Positions 11,237-19,095 of a stretch of DNA of 64,000 nucleotides are shown piece after piece. The DNA comes from Methanofollis ethanolicus (lineage in GTDB: Archaea; Halobacteriota; Methanomicrobia; Methanomicrobiales; Methanofollaceae). Below the pieces are notes generated by a model. The model searched no databases, was not told the origin of the DNA, and worked only from the letters and a program-made list of their open reading frames with translations. A program made the position numbers and the translations under genes. Position 1 is the first letter of the stretch, and every line of letters begins with the position of its first letter. The DNA lies in NCBI RefSeq assembly GCF_001571385.1, contig NZ_BCNW01000001.1, positions 310,001-374,000 on the forward strand. Direction: 5' to 3'.

Positions 11237-12033
11237 GCAGGATCGACGCCCTCTTCTCAGGCCTGGAAAGACCGGCCTGCATCGCCTATCTGGCGGGCGG
11301 CGACCCTGACCCGGAGACCTCCCTTGCGGCGGTGCGGGCGGTCGTCGACGCCGGCGCGGACATCATCGAGATCGGCGTGCCTTTCACCGACCCCATCGCC
11401 GACGGTCCGACGATCAGGCGGGCGGACAACCGTGCCCTTGCGGCCGGGACGACGCCGGACCGGATCTTCGAGCTGGTGCGGGCCGTCAGGGCGGGGACTT
11501 CCGTCCCGATCGTCCTGATGACGGCGTACACCATCGTCTATGTCCGCGGCGTCGACCGCTTCTACCGGGAGGCGGCGGAAGCAGGAACCGATGGGGTGAT
11601 CATCCCAGACATGCCCCCGGAGGAGTCTGGGGACGCCGTCGCCGCGGCCGGGCTGTACGGCCTCGACCAGATCTTTCTCGTGGCCCCGAACACCCCTGAA
11701 GAGCGCCTTGACCTGATCCTGGAGCATGCAGGCGGGTTCCTCTATCTCGTCTCCGTGCAGGGGGTCACCGGTGCGAGGTCCGGCCTCCCGCACGGCATCG
11801 AGGAGAGGATCGCCGCGTTGCGGTCGCGTACCGCTCTCCCCATCGCCGTGGGCTTCGGCATCTCGGGCCCCGAGCAGGTGCGGGCGATCGCGGCCGCGGG
11901 TGCCGACGGCGTGATCGTCGGCAGCGCGATCGTGGCAATCGTCGAGAAGCATCTTGGAGACAGAGAGGCGATGTGCGCCGAACTGAAAGAGTTCGTCGCC
12001 GGCCTCTGCGGGGCTGTCAGGGACGGGGCCTGA
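11233..12033 (+). CDS. trpA: Tryptophan synthase alpha chain
   Basis: A 266-residue barrel that cleaves indole-3-glycerol phosphate to indole and glyceraldehyde-3-phosphate. The catalytic residues are E46 (EIGVPF) and D57 (DPIADGP), equivalent to Glu49/Asp60 of the bacterial enzyme. VQGVTGAR and [10 protein letters not shown] are the phosphate-site loops. ATGA overlap with trpB favours stoichiometric production of the complex. It is the last trp gene. Confidence 0.96.
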
Positions 12034-12041
12034 AGAGGAAC

Positions 12042-13139
12042 ATGACGACGATCGGCCTTGTGATCAACCCACTCGCCGGCCTCGGTGGAACGGTCGGCCT
12101 GAAGGGGACGGACGGGACGGCGGACGAGGCACGGTGGCGGGGTGCTGTGCCGCGGGCGCATGAGCGTGCCGTCGAGGCCCTCCTCTCTCTCCGGGGCCTC
12201 CCCCTCCGCGTCCTCGCCTCTGCCGGTGCGATGGGCGCCGACGCCCTGGATGCCGCGGGCATCAGGGAGTACGAGGTCGTCCATAGTGCCACAGGCAGGG
12301 AGACGACGGCCGACGACACCCGCACCGCGGTCAGAGCCTGTATCGATGCCGGCGCCGACCTCCTCCTCTTCTGCGGCGGTGACGGCACGGCGCGGGACGT
12401 CGCGGCGGCCGCGGGGAAGACCCCCATTCTCGGCATCCCCGCGGGCGTGAAGATGTACTCGGGCGTCTTTGCCGTCCGTCCCTCTGCAGTGGGCGAGGTC
12501 CTTGCCGGGGACTACGCCCTCCGCGAGGCCGAGGTGATGGACATCGACGAGGAGGCGTACCGGCGGGGCGACCTCCGGGCCCGCCTCTACGCGACGGTCA
12601 GGGTGCCCTTCCTCCCCGGCCGGGTGCAGTGCGGAAAGGAGGTCTCCTTCGGGGACGAGGCCGCCGCCCGAGACGGCATCGCCCGCTTCATGGCCGACCT
12701 GATCCGGGCCGGTGGGTGCGTGGTCCTCGGGGCCGGGGGGACCACCGCCGCGATCGCCAGAGAGGCCGGGATCGAGTCGACCCTCCTCGGCGTGGACGTG
12801 GTCGTGGACGGAACATGTGTCGCCTCAGACGTCGACGAGTCGACCCTCCTCGCGCATGTCGGGCGTGCCGACCGGTGCCGGATCATCGTCAGCCCGATCG
12901 GGGCGCAGGGTGCTGTCCTCGGGAGGGGCACCGGGCCGATCACCCCCGCGGTGCTCAGGGCCGCGGGGCCCGAGAACCTCGTCGTCGTCGCCACGCCCGG
13001 CAAACTCGCCGCAACGCCGACCCTCTTCGTCGACACCGGCGACCCGGCCCTCGACGCCGCCTTCGGAGAGAGAATATCCGTCATCTGCGGCTACCATATC
13101 GCGAGGCTGATGCCCCTCATCAGGCCGGCGGAGGAGTGA
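12042..13139 (+). CDS. ATP-NAD kinase family protein
   Basis: A 365-residue protein of the NAD kinase/AcoX-like group (COG3199 type). It begins TTIGLVINPLAGLGGTVGLKG, has the kinase GGDGTARD motif near residue 111 and a second Gly-rich PIGAQGAVLGRGT segment. The likely activity is phosphorylation of NAD or a related diol. The start at 12042 follows AAGAGGAA, 8 bases beyond the trpA stop, so it is probably co-transcribed with trp. A functional link to tryptophan is not evident. The U-rich run after the gene probably ends the operon. Confidence 0.85.
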   Translation: MTTIGLVINPLAGLGGTVGLKGTDGTADEARWRGAVPRAHERAVEALLSLRGLPLRVLASAGAMGADALDAAGIREYEVVHSATGRETTADDTRTAVRACIDAGADLLLFCGGDGTARDVAAAAGKTPILGIPAGVKMYSGVFAVRPSAVGEVLAGDYALREAEVMDIDEEAYRRGDLRARLYATVRVPFLPGRVQCGKEVSFGDEAAARDGIARFMADLIRAGGCVVLGAGGTTAAIAREAGIESTLLGVDVVVDGTCVASDVDESTLLAHVGRADRCRIIVSPIGAQGAVLGRGTGPITPAVLRAAGPENLVVVATPGKLAATPTLFVDTGDPALDAAFGERISVICGYHIARLMPLIRPAEE

Positions 13140-13316: not shown

Positions 13317-14162
13317 ATGACGCCCTGCATGGACCCTCAGGTCACCGAGATCACCGTCCTCCCGGGACGGGACAAGAACGGCGAGACCGAGCACTTCGAC
13401 CGGATCGTCATCAGGCCGGGCGAGACACTCGCCATCGTCGGCCCGACCGGGTCAGGAAAGAGCGCCTTCATCAACGACATCGAGGTCTTTGCGAGGAACG
13501 ACACGGTCACCGGACGGACCGTCCTGGTCAACGGGGAGGCGCCGCCCGACGACTATGTGCGTGACCCGGCGAAAAAACCGGTCGCCCTCATCACCCAGAA
13601 CACCCGCTGCCTCGCCGACCTCGGGGTTGCGGAGTTCCTCGGGATGCACCTCTCGGCCCGCGGCATCGGGGACGAAAAGGTCGTGGAAGAGACGATCGCC
13701 CTTGCAAACGAGTTCACCGGCGAGAAAATCGCGCACGGGACAGGGATGACCTCTCTCTCCGGCGGGCAGACCAGGTCCCTCATGGTGGCTGACGCGATCC
13801 TCATCGGGAGCACGCCCGTGATCATCCTGGACGAGGTCGAGAACGCCGGGATCTTCAAGGACAGGGTGATCGAGGTCCTCCGCACCTACCGGAAAGCCGT
13901 GGTCTTCGTCACCCACGACCCCCTCGTCGCCCTGATGTGCGACCGGCGGATCGTGATGCGGAACGGGACGGTCGTCAGGGTCATAGAGCGGACAGGCCGC
14001 GAGGACGAGGCCCTCTCCGCGGTGAAGGCGATGGACGACATCCTCTGCCGCCTCAGGGAACGGATCCGCGCCGGCGAGGCGATCGTCGGCGGCCTGCCTG
14101 CCGCTTTCACCTCCGAAGAGGTGCACGCGGCTCTCACCTCGGACTCGGTGCATGCCCTATGA
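13317..14162 (+). CDS. Stand-alone ABC-type ATPase of the CoM gene cluster
   Basis: A 281-residue soluble ABC ATPase: Walker A GPTGSGKS at 42-49, Q-loop LITQNT, signature SLSGGQTRS near 144, Walker B VIILDEVE, and H-loop THD. There is no membrane segment and no permease gene nearby, so it is probably not a conventional transporter subunit. It heads a run of overlapping genes ending in cysteate synthase and ComDE. Its ATPase may drive assembly or reactivation of a metalloprotein, as the methanogen ABC protein AtwA does for methyl-CoM reductase; this is inference. M5 (13329) is an alternative start. The stop overlaps the next gene (ATGA). Confidence 0.8.
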   Translation: MTPCMDPQVTEITVLPGRDKNGETEHFDRIVIRPGETLAIVGPTGSGKSAFINDIEVFARNDTVTGRTVLVNGEAPPDDYVRDPAKKPVALITQNTRCLADLGVAEFLGMHLSARGIGDEKVVEETIALANEFTGEKIAHGTGMTSLSGGQTRSLMVADAILIGSTPVIILDEVENAGIFKDRVIEVLRTYRKAVVFVTHDPLVALMCDRRIVMRNGTVVRVIERTGREDEALSAVKAMDDILCRLRERIRAGEAIVGGLPAAFTSEEVHAALTSDSVHAL

Positions 14163-14866
14163 AACTCCTTGTCATTGCAGGACCACCGTCTGCGGGCAAG
14201 ACCGCGGTCGTCCGCCAGGTCCTCAGGAGCCTCGGGCCTGAGGAGAAGGCGGCCTACCTCAAGATCGACGTCGTCAGGGCCTTCGAGGACGAGGAACTCG
14301 CGGCCGAGTTCGGCATCCCGGCACGGAAGGTCTACTCGGGCGACCTCTGTCCCGACCATGCCGGGATCATGGTGATGGCCGACGCCCTCCGCTGGGCCGA
14401 GGCCGAGAAAGCTTCTCTCCTCATCGTGGAGTCCGCAGGTCTCTGCCTCCGCTGCTCACCGTACGTCACCCAGGCCCTCGGTGTCGTCGTCCTCAGTGCC
14501 GTCTCCGGTATCCACGCCCCCCTGAAGATGGGTCCGATGATCGGCCTCGCCGACGTGGCGGTCGTCACCAGGATTGACCTGGTCTCCCAGGCCGAGAAGG
14601 AGGTCTTCAGGGAGGGGATCAGGGAGGTGGCCCCCGAGATCGAGATCGTCGAGACGAACGCGGTGCAGGGGACGGGCATGCGCTACCTGCTCAGGAGGAT
14701 CAAAGAGGCCGACGAGGTGACGGACGCCGGCACCATCGAACTCCGCGGCGTCCCGCCCCTCGGTGTCTGCACTGTCTGCGTCGGCAAGAAAGAGATCGGG
14801 TGGCAGCACCATTTCGGCGTCGTCCGGAGACTCGGGGACGCCGGCACGCTCTTCCGGGGTGAGTAG
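14159..14866 (+). CDS. HypB/CooC-like P-loop GTPase
   Basis: A 235-residue nucleotide-binding protein of the SIMIBI class. The P-loop is GPPSAGKT at 8-15, followed by LKIDVVR, IVESAGLCLRC and a VVTRIDLVS base-recognition-like segment (T-x-x-D). Two Cys pairs, CLRC near residue 99 and CTVC near 205, could bind a metal or Fe-S cluster, as in HypB/CooC metallochaperones. It starts in an ATGA overlap with the ABC ATPase. With the neighbouring Fe-S protein and marker 16 it suggests a metallocluster maturation unit. Exact function is unknown. Confidence 0.78.
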   Translation: MKLLVIAGPPSAGKTAVVRQVLRSLGPEEKAAYLKIDVVRAFEDEELAAEFGIPARKVYSGDLCPDHAGIMVMADALRWAEAEKASLLIVESAGLCLRCSPYVTQALGVVVLSAVSGIHAPLKMGPMIGLADVAVVTRIDLVSQAEKEVFREGIREVAPEIEIVETNAVQGTGMRYLLRRIKEADEVTDAGTIELRGVPPLGVCTVCVGKKEIGWQHHFGVVRRLGDAGTLFRGE

Positions 14867-15478
14867 ATGGTCTGGCAGCCTCCCGGAAAGAACTGCGGCC
14901 TCTGCGGGGCGCGAACCTGCGATGCGTTCATGGAGATGGTTGCCGCAGGGGAGCGTTCCGTCTCCGACTGCCCCTTCTCCGAGGGCGAGGCCTGCGTCGC
15001 CGCGCCTGACACCGTCTACACGGGGCGGGACATCGTCGGCAATGCCTACGACTTCGTCCTCGACCCCCTGCCCGGCGAACCCACGGCCCGGAAGATCGTC
15101 CTCCCCTTCAGGCCCGACCTCGTGGAGAGGTGGGGGATCGCGGAGGGCGAGATCGTCGTCGGCCGCCCGATGGGCGCGGGGTGCCCGGTCCAGCACGTGA
15201 TCCGGGTGGTCGAGGCCGACCCCATCACCGGCCTCATCACCGGCCATGTCGTCGGCCCTGAGTTCTCCCGCGGTCGGGAGTACCATGACGTGCGGGCCTA
15301 CCACATGATCGGCTTCGAGGGCCTCGCCCGCCCTGTCGCCCACCCTCCGGTCTTCGGGAAACGCCAGCGTTTCCTCCCGGGCTTCTGCATGATGGCCCTC
15401 GCCCACACCGGGGTTATCAATATGATTGTGGAGCGCCCAGAGGGGCTGCACGTACGGGTGGAGGACGTCATCATATGA
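14867..15478 (+). CDS. [4Fe-4S] domain protein of the CoM gene cluster
   Basis: A 203-residue protein whose N-terminus has Cys at 10, 13, 18 and 35 (NCGLCGARTC ... DCPF). This is the (Fe-S) domain pattern of the acetyl-CoA synthase corrinoid Fe-S protein and RnfB. The remaining residues form a compact beta-rich domain with VVGRPMGAGCPVQHVIRV and a C-terminal GFCMMALAH. The gene starts directly after the GTPase stop and overlaps marker 16 by 4 bases. It probably donates electrons or carries a cluster for its neighbours. It occurs in methanogens beside marker 16; the role is not established. Confidence 0.78.
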   Translation: MVWQPPGKNCGLCGARTCDAFMEMVAAGERSVSDCPFSEGEACVAAPDTVYTGRDIVGNAYDFVLDPLPGEPTARKIVLPFRPDLVERWGIAEGEIVVGRPMGAGCPVQHVIRVVEADPITGLITGHVVGPEFSRGREYHDVRAYHMIGFEGLARPVAHPPVFGKRQRFLPGFCMMALAHTGVINMIVERPEGLHVRVEDVII

Positions 15479-16701
15479 AGACCATCGCGGGAATCGAGGA
15501 ACGGATCCGGGACGGCAGCGCTGTTGTCCTGACCGCAGTTGAACTGAAGAAACGGATCCGGGAAGGGGAGAGGCTGACGCCTGAAGACGTCGACGTCGTC
15601 ACCTGTGGGACCTGCGGTGTGATGTCAGGGACGACGGCGGTCCTCTCCATGCCGGTGGCCCAACCGGGCACTTTCTTCCGGGCCGACACCGTCAGCCTGA
15701 ACGGTGTCCCGGCCTTCCCGGGCCCCTGCCCGAACGAGCGCCTCGGCCTGGTGGACATGGTCGTCTACGGCACCTCTCACAGCGGGCAGAGGTACGGCGG
15801 CGGCCACCTCATCGCCGACCTGGCGGCAGGAAAGGACGTCGATGTCCTGGTCACGGCGGGGGGACGGGAGATCTCGCGCACGGTCACGATCGAGGACTGC
15901 ACCGTCGCCCGCCTGGTCACGACCAGGAGCGCCTTCAGGAACTATACCGCCTACGTGAACCGCGAGCCCTCTGAGGTCAGGACGATCTTCTCGGCCGCGG
16001 GTATGCGGGGGCCGTGTGCCGAGGCCTCGGTCAGCGGCTGCGGCGAGATCAACCCGATCGAGAACGACCCTTCCCTCAGGTTCATCAGGGCGGGTGGGCG
16101 GGTGCTCGTGAACGGGGCGCCCGGTTTCGTGATGGGTGAGGGGACGCGGAGCACGCCGGAAAAGCCGAACATCATGGTCTTCGCCGACATCAGGGAGATG
16201 AACCCCCGCTACTGCGGCGGCTTCGTCACATCGGCAGGGCCTGAGTGCATCACGAGCATCGCCGCGGCGATCCCCGTCCTGGACGAGGCCGGGCTCTTTG
16301 CCCTCTCCGTTCTCGACGAGGCGATCGCACTGCCCGTGGCCGACATCAGCGACCGCCGCCCCTTTGCGGCGGCGACCTACGGGGACGTCTGGCAGGGCAC
16401 CGACCGGCGTGTCACCTACGACCCGGCTTCCTGCCTCTTCTGCGAGCCCTGCGTTGCCGGGGGTATCTGCCCGACCGGCGCCTTTGCGACCGGGAAGGGG
16501 ATCGACACGGCCCTCTGCGTCTCCTGCGGGGCGTGTGCGGCATCGTGTCGCGGCGGCGCTGTCTCCGCCACCCTCGGGACCATTACCGTCTGCGACAGGC
16601 GGGTGTCGATCACCCTCCGCCAGTCCGACAGGAACCGTGCCGAGGCACTCTGCGAGGACCTGCGCCAGAGGATCCTTGACCTGGGGTTCCCGGTGAGGTG
16701 A
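15475..16701 (+). CDS. Methanogenesis marker 16 metalloprotein (DUF39 plus ferredoxin domain)
   Basis: A 408-residue protein made of a DUF39-type domain (about 1-315) and a C-terminal two-cluster ferredoxin domain (CLFCEPCVAGGICPTGAF, CVSCGACAASC). DUF39 conserved points seen are CGTCGVMSGTT (C44, C47), GGGHLI and SGCGEINPIEND. Relatives of DUF39 form homocysteine from aspartate semialdehyde by inserting sulfur into an aldehyde. Marker 16 is a paralogue restricted largely to methanogens. It is encoded here directly before cysteate synthase and ComDE, whose product is sulfoacetaldehyde. A parallel thiolation giving coenzyme M is an attractive inference. ATGA overlap with the Fe-S gene. Confidence 0.88.
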   Translation: MKTIAGIEERIRDGSAVVLTAVELKKRIREGERLTPEDVDVVTCGTCGVMSGTTAVLSMPVAQPGTFFRADTVSLNGVPAFPGPCPNERLGLVDMVVYGTSHSGQRYGGGHLIADLAAGKDVDVLVTAGGREISRTVTIEDCTVARLVTTRSAFRNYTAYVNREPSEVRTIFSAAGMRGPCAEASVSGCGEINPIENDPSLRFIRAGGRVLVNGAPGFVMGEGTRSTPEKPNIMVFADIREMNPRYCGGFVTSAGPECITSIAAAIPVLDEAGLFALSVLDEAIALPVADISDRRPFAAATYGDVWQGTDRRVTYDPASCLFCEPCVAGGICPTGAFATGKGIDTALCVSCGACAASCRGGAVSATLGTITVCDRRVSITLRQSDRNRAEALCEDLRQRILDLGFPVR

Positions 16702-16703
16702 CA

Positions 16704-17981
16704 ATGATGCGACCGTACACCCTCCTCTGCCCCGACTGCGGGGAAACTGTCGAGGACCACTACACCCTCTCCTGCCCCTCCGGGTGTAGGGCCCTCGTCC
16801 GCACCGTCTACCGAAAAAAGACCCTTGATATCAGGGACGAACCCGGTGTCTTCAGGTTCTCCGACTGGCTCCCTGTCGAGGGGACGATCAAGTCCGCAGC
16901 AGGGCCGGTCACCTTCCGCTCCACCGCTCTTGCCCGAGATATTGGCCTCAGGAATCTCTGGATAGGCTTTTCCGGCTACTGGCCCGAGAAGGGGGGGAGG
17001 GTTCTCACCTGTTCCTTCAAGGAACTCGAAGCCCTCCCGACGATGGTGCGGGTGCGGGAGACGGCCCGCGGCCGAACCCTCGTCGTCGCCTCCGCCGGGA
17101 ACACAGGCCGCGCCTTCTGCCAGACCGCGGCCCTGACCGGGATGCCGGTCGTCGTCGTCGTGCCGGAGAATGCCGTCGCCCGCCTCTGGACGACGGTGGA
17201 GACCGACAGAGTCTGCCTGGTCACGGTGGACGGCGACTATGCCGACGCCATCGCGGTGGCGAACGGCCTCTGCTCTGTCCAGGGTTTGATCCCGGAGGGC
17301 GGGGCGAAGAATGTCGCCCGGAGGGACGGCATGGGCACGGTGATGCTCGACGCCGCTGTCACCCTGGGCCGGATCCCCGACCACTATGTCCAGGCCGTCG
17401 GGAGCGGGACCGGGGGCATCGCTGCCTGGGAGGCTTCGATGAGGCTTCTCGGCGACGGCAGGTTCGGGGACCGTCTGCCGCGCCTGCACCTCGCGCAGAA
17501 CGCCCCCTTTGTCCCGATGGTCAGGGCATGGCAGGCAGGCAGGCGCGAGATCATCCCTGAAGAGGATATGCCCGATGCACGGGCGTCGATCGCGGCGGTT
17601 TATTCTGATGTCCTGACGAATAGAAGTCCGCCTTATGGTGTCGGCGGCGGCGTCTTTGACGCCCTCACGGCGACAGGAGGATCGATGTATTCGGTGGAGA
17701 ACAGAGAGGCTGAGGATGCGGGACGGCACTTCGCCGAGGCCGAGGGGATCGACCTCGACCCGGCGGCCGCGGTGGCGGTGGCCGCCCTCAGGCAGGCGGT
17801 GGAGTCGGGGAAGATCGGGCGCAACGATGCCGTCCTCCTCAACATCACCGGCGGCGGCTACCGGCGCGTGGCCGAGGAGCATGAGCGCTACAGGATCGAG
17901 CCCGCGTTCAGGGTCGCTCCAGACGTGGACGCGGCCGTCCTCGGGGCGAGGGTGCTCGGGCAGGTGAGAAACCGTGCATGA
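16704..17981 (+). CDS. Cysteate synthase
   Basis: A 425-residue threonine-synthase-like PLP enzyme. The N-terminus has a zinc-ribbon-like CPDCG...CPSGC. The PLP lysine lies in TCSFKELEALP, followed by ASAGNTGRAF, GSGTGG and NITGGG motifs. In Methanosarcinales/Methanomicrobiales this paralogue makes L-cysteate from phosphoserine and sulfite, the first step of their CoM route. The adjacent ComDE supports cysteate synthase over threonine synthase. The marker 16 stop overlaps a GTG at 16698; ATGs at 16704 and 16707 sit after a GAGGTGA ribosome binding site, so the exact start is uncertain by a few codons. Confidence 0.9.
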   Translation: MMRPYTLLCPDCGETVEDHYTLSCPSGCRALVRTVYRKKTLDIRDEPGVFRFSDWLPVEGTIKSAAGPVTFRSTALARDIGLRNLWIGFSGYWPEKGGRVLTCSFKELEALPTMVRVRETARGRTLVVASAGNTGRAFCQTAALTGMPVVVVVPENAVARLWTTVETDRVCLVTVDGDYADAIAVANGLCSVQGLIPEGGAKNVARRDGMGTVMLDAAVTLGRIPDHYVQAVGSGTGGIAAWEASMRLLGDGRFGDRLPRLHLAQNAPFVPMVRAWQAGRREIIPEEDMPDARASIAAVYSDVLTNRSPPYGVGGGVFDALTATGGSMYSVENREAEDAGRHFAEAEGIDLDPAAAVAVAALRQAVESGKIGRNDAVLLNITGGGYRRVAEEHERYRIEPAFRVAPDVDAAVLGARVLGQVRNRA

Positions 17982-19095
17982 AGACCTCGTCGCCGACCTC
18001 CTCGCCGAAAAGGGGATCGACCTTGTCGCCTCCCTCCCCTGCGACCGCGCCGGCGACCTCTGCTTCCTCCTCTCGGAGCGCTTCCCGACCGTCGGGCTGA
18101 TGCGGGAGGAGGACGGCGTCGGCGTCTCTGCCGGGGCGGTGCTCGCCGGGAAGAGGCCTGTGGTCGTCATCCAGAGTTCGGGTCTCGGGAACATGCTCAA
18201 CGCGGTCCTCTCTCTCACCGTCACCTTCGCCCTGCCCCTCCCGATACTGGCGAGCTGGCGGGGGGTGTACAAGGAGAAGATCCCGGCCCAGATCCCCTTC
18301 AACACCCGCCTCCCCGCGATCCTCGAAGCGGCGGGCATCCCGTATACCGTCGTCCAGGACGCCGGCGAGATCCGGAAGATCGGCGAGGTGATCGACGACG
18401 CTTTCCTCCATTCCCGCCCCCATGTCGCCCTCATCTCGCCGAAGGTCTGGGAGGGGGGGAAGTGCGAGGTCTGCCGCGACCTGCCGCCGCGGCCCTGCCG
18501 TCCCTGCATCGTCGGAGAGCGCCCGGTCCCCTCGCCGGTGACCGAGAGGTTCGGGGCGATCAGGGCGATCGTCCCCCACCTCGGAGACGCCGCCGTCGTC
18601 TGCAACATCGGGGTGCCGAGCAAGGAGCTCTACGCCGCGGGCGACCGCCCGCTCACCTTCTACATGCTCGGCTCCTACACCCAGGCCTCGGCTATCGGCC
18701 TCGGCCTCGCTCTCTCGACAGACAGGCGGGTCGTCGTCATCGACGGCGACGGCAGCCTCCTCGGGAGCGCCATCCTCCCGGTCATCGCGGCGAGCGCCCC
18801 GAAAAACCTCACCGTCGTCTGCCTGGACAACGGCACCTTCGGCTCGACGGGCAACCAGCCCACCTGTGCCTGCACCGGTGCCGACCTCGAAGTCGCGGCG
18901 ATCGCCGCAGGCTTTCGCCGGACCTGCACCGTCGCCGACGAGGGGGCAATCGTGGCGGCCCTGGACGACCCCTCCCCCGGCCCCGCCTTTGTCAGGGTGC
19001 TGATCAGGCCGGGCAACGCGGACGTGCCCAATATCCCTCTCTCCCCCGCGGAGATCAGGGGCCGCTTCATGGCCGCGGTGAAGGGGCGGGAGTGA
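17974..19095 (+). CDS. comDE: Sulfopyruvate decarboxylase, fused alpha and beta domains
   Basis: A 373-residue TPP enzyme converting sulfopyruvate to sulfoacetaldehyde for coenzyme M. The N-terminal half (about 1-165) is the pyrimidine-binding ComD part, with the catalytic Glu in LMREEDGVGVSAG. The C-terminal half is the ComE part with the TPP/Mg motif GDGSLLG and LDNGTFGSTGNQPT. Some methanogens encode the halves separately; here they are one polypeptide, so stoichiometry is fixed. It starts at GTG 17974 within the cysteate synthase 3' end (8-base overlap) and is the last gene of the cluster. Confidence 0.93.
   Translation: MHEDLVADLLAEKGIDLVASLPCDRAGDLCFLLSERFPTVGLMREEDGVGVSAGAVLAGKRPVVVIQSSGLGNMLNAVLSLTVTFALPLPILASWRGVYKEKIPAQIPFNTRLPAILEAAGIPYTVVQDAGEIRKIGEVIDDAFLHSRPHVALISPKVWEGGKCEVCRDLPPRPCRPCIVGERPVPSPVTERFGAIRAIVPHLGDAAVVCNIGVPSKELYAAGDRPLTFYMLGSYTQASAIGLGLALSTDRRVVVIDGDGSLLGSAILPVIAASAPKNLTVVCLDNGTFGSTGNQPTCACTGADLEVAAIAAGFRRTCTVADEGAIVAALDDPSPGPAFVRVLIRPGNADVPNIPLSPAEIRGRFMAAVKGRE

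Follow-up and report, generated by a model that had tools for sequence, protein, structure and literature searches.

Coenzyme M (CoM) is a small sulfur cofactor on which all methane formation by archaea depends, and the closest described system for its synthesis is that of Methanosarcina acetivorans, in which Chadwick et al. (PLoS Genet 2025, PMC12068725) identified MMP16 as the main CoM synthase (ComF). Deletion of MMP16 in this organism causes a CoM-dependent growth defect that is restored by complementation, is associated with a CoM-starvation transcriptome and, when sulfide is omitted, results in full CoM auxotrophy; cysteate synthase, ComDE and MMP16 are all required for CoM (PMC12068725). 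The same authors found that the conserved core cysteines of MMP16, which had been presumed to be catalytic, are dispensable, and proposed that L-ASST may act as a backup in M. acetivorans and that COG1900 enzymes may substitute for each other. Earlier work, as cited in PMC12068725, is described there as having obtained conversion of sulfoacetaldehyde to CoM by E. coli carrying MJ1681. In a later paper (PMC12713407), the step is still described as one that may proceed without an enzyme or may be due to MA3299.

Genes for an ATPase, a nickel-binding-type GTPase and a COG2000 Fe-S protein (here called the triad) have been recorded beside CoM genes without a role being assigned to them (PMC12068725), and a literature search that reached few subscription papers retrieved no other paper on this triad. 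In the current work, the name COG2000 is adopted from PMC12068725, where such a gene sits beside identical partners.

A six-gene coenzyme M operon in Methanofollis ethanolicus

The window, being the whole stretch of 64,000 nucleotides analysed here, contains six plus-strand genes at positions 13317-19095, with neighbouring genes in the ORF listing abutting or overlapping by 4-8 bases:

13317..14162, plus strand: soluble ABC-type ATPase, triad gene 1 (PF00005)
14159..14866, plus strand: HypB/UreG-type GTPase with an extra C-terminal CxxC...H, triad gene 2 (PF02492; start set from homologues)
14867..15478, plus strand: COG2000 Fe-S protein, triad gene 3 (PF04060)
15475..16701, plus strand: MMP16/ComF, coenzyme M synthase (TIGR03287, 530.4 bits; PF01837, 321.7 bits; function as in PMC12068725)
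16698..17981, plus strand, GTG start: cysteate synthase, O-phosphoserine plus sulfite to L-cysteate (TIGR03844, 658.8 bits)
17974..19095, plus strand, GTG start: ComDE, fused sulfopyruvate decarboxylase, sulfopyruvate to sulfoacetaldehyde (TIGR03845, 200.6 bits; TIGR03846, 232.2 bits)

Homologues suggest that the real start of the ATPase is the ATG at 13329. An NAD-kinase-like gene (window 11973-13139) ends 177 bases upstream of the operon, and the next long ORF downstream of ComDE that was taken as a gene lies on the opposite strand. Among the loci fetched, an NAD-kinase-like gene also adjoins the triad in one genome of the same genus (L071). A transaminase for the conversion of cysteate to sulfopyruvate is absent from the six-gene cluster.

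Identical genes in identical order were observed in 14 of the 14 Methanomicrobiales MMP16 loci for which flanks were available (L033-L043, L067, L070, L071), and again in many named genomes retrieved by a separate route, so that the arrangement is not a product of chance. The closest named relative of the COG2000 protein belongs to an uncultured Methanofollis (95% identity). The six-gene CoM module proposed in the preliminary description of this DNA was thereby confirmed by ORFs, family models and conserved gene order. The locus resembles the cs-comDE-MMP16 cluster of M. acetivorans (MA3297-MA3299), in which cysteate synthase, a fused ComDE and an adjacent MMP16 constitute a type 2 pathway, but it differs in that the genes here form a single run behind the ATPase-GTPase-COG2000 triad.

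MMP16 as the probable coenzyme M synthase

The MMP16 protein scored 530.4 bits against TIGR03287 (cut-off 363.95), covering profile positions 1-386 of 391, and its residues 16-404 correspond to the PF01837 HcyBio (DUF39)/COG1900 domain (321.7 bits), which upholds the DUF39 membership first proposed for it. The protein carries C189 within an SGCGE motif, and a fused C-terminal eight-Cys ferredoxin part with conserved cysteines from C320 to C358. The two enzymes which act before it were likewise assigned by family models: cysteate synthase exceeds its TIGR03844 cut-off (658.8 versus 324.9 bits), which places the operon in the type 2 CoM pathway, and both ComDE halves exceed theirs (TIGR03845, 200.6 versus 147.95 bits; TIGR03846, 232.2 versus 221.5 bits).

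A second PF01837 protein is encoded elsewhere in the host genome (C1:1634264-1635277) and has the CBS domains of the usual L-ASST form. MMP16 shares with L-ASST (COG1900a, MA1821-22 type) the COG1900/PF01837 domain, aldehyde-to-thiol chemistry and a ferredoxin partner; unlike L-ASST, it has neither the MCSSG cysteine nor CBS domains, and has instead the SGCGE motif and the fused ferredoxin part. At the position where the L-ASST of the same genome reads MCSSG, MMP16 reads MSGT (S51), and it thus lacks the cysteine that corresponds by position to the essential Cys54 of MA1821 (PMC12068725) and by which L-ASST is recognised, a difference that agrees with the distinction drawn in that paper.

The locus is very probably a translationally coupled type 2 (phosphoserine-type) CoM operon with MMP16 as the synthase, and by analogy the Methanofollis orthologue would act as M. 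acetivorans MMP16 does. This reading of the operon and of MMP16 is already known and is not new. The preliminary description had suggested MMP16 as the enzyme converting sulfoacetaldehyde to CoM, a suggestion supported by the M. acetivorans genetics (PMC12068725) and, as that paper presents the earlier work, by MJ1681 in E. coli; its statement that the final step lacks a well-established enzyme is out of date given PMC12068725. Its further idea that the neighbouring Fe-S protein is a partner of MMP16 is unproven. Considering that MMP16 has an eight-Cys ferredoxin part of its own, there is no need to assume that the COG2000 protein supplies its electrons, and the distribution of the two proteins also speaks against a strict partnership, many MMP16-positive genomes being without COG2000 and some COG2000-positive genomes without MMP16.

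Conserved residues of the triad proteins

Invariance was determined over 91 distinct homologues for the ATPase, and over 94-104 distinct sequences for COG2000 and the GTPase. The Walker A, LSGGQ and Walker B (DE.ENAG) residues of the ATPase are invariant across its 91 homologues.

The GTPase matches PF02492 with 44.4 bits (gathering score 20.7), and its structure matches are HypB and UreG (E about 1e-9). It falls far below the cut-offs of both specific families, namely HypB (TIGR00073; 66.5 versus 121.2 bits) and UreG (23.5 versus 204.2 bits). As in the HypB/UreG nickel-chaperone GTPases, a Cys-Pro-(Asp)-His metal motif is present within a G-domain of the same family, the CPDH motif of the triad GTPase aligning with the CPH motif of UreG, and its Cys and His being invariant in 94 sequences. 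Unlike these chaperones, the triad GTPase has an extra invariant CLRC and a C-terminal CxxC...H, the invariant residues being C64, H67, C96, C99, C204, C207 and H218.

The COG2000 protein contains an invariant [4Fe-4S] set (C10, C13, C18 and C35) in an N-terminal PF04060 domain like that of the corrinoid/iron-sulfur protein gamma subunit (40-44% identity over about 40 residues; match to 4djd, E 5e-7). It differs from that subunit in having no corrinoid domain and in continuing into a beta-rich domain that lacks a clear structural match and carries a second invariant Cys/His set (C106, H110, C174 and H180). Foldseek with the predicted model (mean pLDDT 88) gave no match at E <= 0.001. In a further structure comparison, the best hit (Z 5.3, 63 residues aligned) was to a barrel found in an ATP synthase subunit, and was taken to reflect a common arrangement only.

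Co-occurrence of the triad with coenzyme M genes

A profile search for MMP16, COG2000, McrA, cysteate synthase, ComE and the GTPase was performed on 177 Halobacteriota-type genomes, i.e. of the phylum of the window. Among the 101 MCR-positive genomes, MMP16 and ComE were both present in 77, ComE only in 5, MMP16 only in 0 and neither in 19, an association with p = 2.6e-16 when kinship is ignored. Cysteate synthase and ComE were both found in 46 of the 47 MCR-positive genomes with the triad (scored by COG2000, kinship again ignored). As many as 36 genomes that are MCR- and ComE-positive, Methanosarcina-type genomes included, are without COG2000, so that CoM synthesis does not, as a general rule, depend on the triad; the search of the Methanosarcina-type genomes G105 and G120 found no COG2000.

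Two stricter roles were considered for the triad. That of an obligate MMP16 maturation factor was rejected on account of 33 MCR- and MMP16-positive genomes without COG2000, and is also contradicted by G046 and G033, which have COG2000 and no MMP16. That of a partner specific to cysteate synthase was weakened by Methanopyri and a Jordarchaeum bin, where MMP16 and the triad are present and no cysteate synthase exceeds the cut-off. The Jordarchaeum bin (G178; L123, L172) has MMP16 above cut-off, with SGSGE in place of SGCGE, and no McrA, and may represent a binning error.

Separately, a cysteate-synthase-like gene adjoins a ComDE-like gene in eight genomes that have neither McrA nor MMP16 (G022, G029, G036, G115, G137, G160, G168 and G129); seven of them belong to one family, which we would guess to be Archaeoglobus-like.

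Genomic contexts of the triad

The ATPase-GTPase-COG2000 set stays together as one fixed unit across two distinct layouts of the CoM operon. The first is the Methanomicrobiales order (ATPase-GTPase-COG2000-MMP16-cysteate synthase-ComDE). In the second, which occurs in several Methanosarcinaceae-like genomes and in Methanothrix, the order is cysteate synthase-ATPase-GTPase-COG2000, and ComD-ComE often come next; any MMP16 gene on that stretch has the opposite orientation.

A one-contig Methanoculleus-type genome (G003, of the genus group of G066) retains a remnant of the operon. McrA is present, and a profile search of this genome found neither MMP16 nor cysteate synthase. At C1:613869-615294 (L178:7870-9295) it carries a split ATPase and a single open frame in which the beginning of the GTPase is fused, in frame, to the end of ComDE. 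The simplest reading of this locus is an internal deletion of the six-gene operon, from which it follows that the triad and the CoM genes decayed together.

Triads located away from CoM genes were found in G155, as second copies in G167 and G171, and in bacterial bins, and a comparison of the neighbours of these standalone triads revealed no single common partner. Two Clostridia bins (L109, L118) have triads with common surroundings (a TrmO-like gene and a CbiQ-type transporter), a Deltaproteobacteria bin (L114) has a split triad within a cluster that includes NeuB-type sugar genes, and a Bacteroidetes bin (L132) also carries the triad. In G009 (L156), the genes for the GTPase and COG2000 are separated by one for a class V aminotransferase.

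GTPase-ATPase pairs that are paralogous to those of the triad and lack COG2000 have as neighbours solute-binding proteins and DUF364/DUF4213 heavy-metal-chelation genes, in some cases together with BtuC/FecCD-type permease genes; in two genomes (L179, L180) such pairs directly follow mcr/mtr genes. The latter position, the likeness of the GTPase to nickel chaperones, and the location of the second triad copy of G171 (L160) near a RamA-like corrinoid activase would all fit a triad that matures methyl-CoM reductase, Mtr or another nickel/cobalt enzyme and whose link to CoM synthesis is one of co-regulation only. We consider this unlikely, as the mtr-adjacent pairs are a separate paralogue without COG2000, COG2000 is missing from 54 of the 101 MCR-positive genomes, and the G003 remnant decayed alongside the CoM genes while mcrA remained.

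In the Methanoregula-type loci L153 (G046), L106, L107, L116 and L119 (the last being CP121470, recorded as a complete chromosome), the triad directly precedes cysteate synthase and ComDE, no MMP16 gene intervening. The corresponding genomes (G046, G185-G188) contain no MMP16 above cut-off anywhere, and each retains one L-ASST-like protein. In G046, an HTH gene and a gene for an SsuA-like sulfonate-binding protein adjoin the triad. The retention of the triad next to cysteate synthase and ComDE in genomes that have no MMP16 would fit a role in supplying sulfite, the sulfur substrate common to cysteate synthase and ComA, as opposed to one in the last step; the Methanopyri, which have the triad and no cysteate synthase above cut-off, would fit a need common to both pathways. 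Such a sulfite-supplying role appears improbable, given that the analysis recognised no domain for the oxidation of sulfite or sulfide and that, L-ASST being present in the MMP16-less genomes, the last step is common to these genomes too.

As to MMP16 itself, it is highly improbable that it is a second homocysteine-forming L-ASST which acts on aspartate semialdehyde and lies in the CoM operon by chance, since, despite the shared PF01837 family and the possible mutual replacement of COG1900 enzymes in M. acetivorans (PMC12068725), the same genome also encodes a distinct COG1900 protein that is full-length and has the CBS domains usual for L-ASST, the TIGR03287 scores differ widely (530 bits for MMP16 versus 160), MMP16 tightly co-occurs with ComE, and its deletion gives a CoM phenotype in M. 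acetivorans.

Proposed pathway and meaning

In the proposed pathway, with MMP16 as the synthase, cysteate synthase would make L-cysteate, which a general aminotransferase encoded elsewhere would convert to sulfopyruvate; ComDE would decarboxylate the latter to sulfoacetaldehyde, and MMP16 (ComF) would then form CoM by exchanging the aldehyde oxygen for a thiol, with the sulfur coming from a donor and the electrons passing through its ferredoxin part. Within the triad, the GTPase may serve as a metal carrier, together with the ABC-type ATPase, and COG2000 may be the Fe-S metal protein that they serve.

The invariant metal-ligand residues, the CPDH motif of the GTPase and the paralogues near metal-chelation and transport-like genes lead us to infer, tentatively and at somewhat less than even confidence, that the triad is a metal- or redox-delivery module which provides CoM synthesis with metal, electrons or sulfur. 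The more specific proposal, that it is a new nucleotide-driven metal/redox delivery module for CoM formation which works with MMP16, or with L-ASST where MMP16 is absent as in the Methanoregula-type genomes, is doubtful.

The last enzyme of CoM synthesis is known by genetics from one species, and the triad marks a possible place of a missing partner. A natural test of L-ASST as the main CoM synthase is offered by the genomes of the Methanoregula type, which have cysteate synthase, ComDE and L-ASST and no MMP16.
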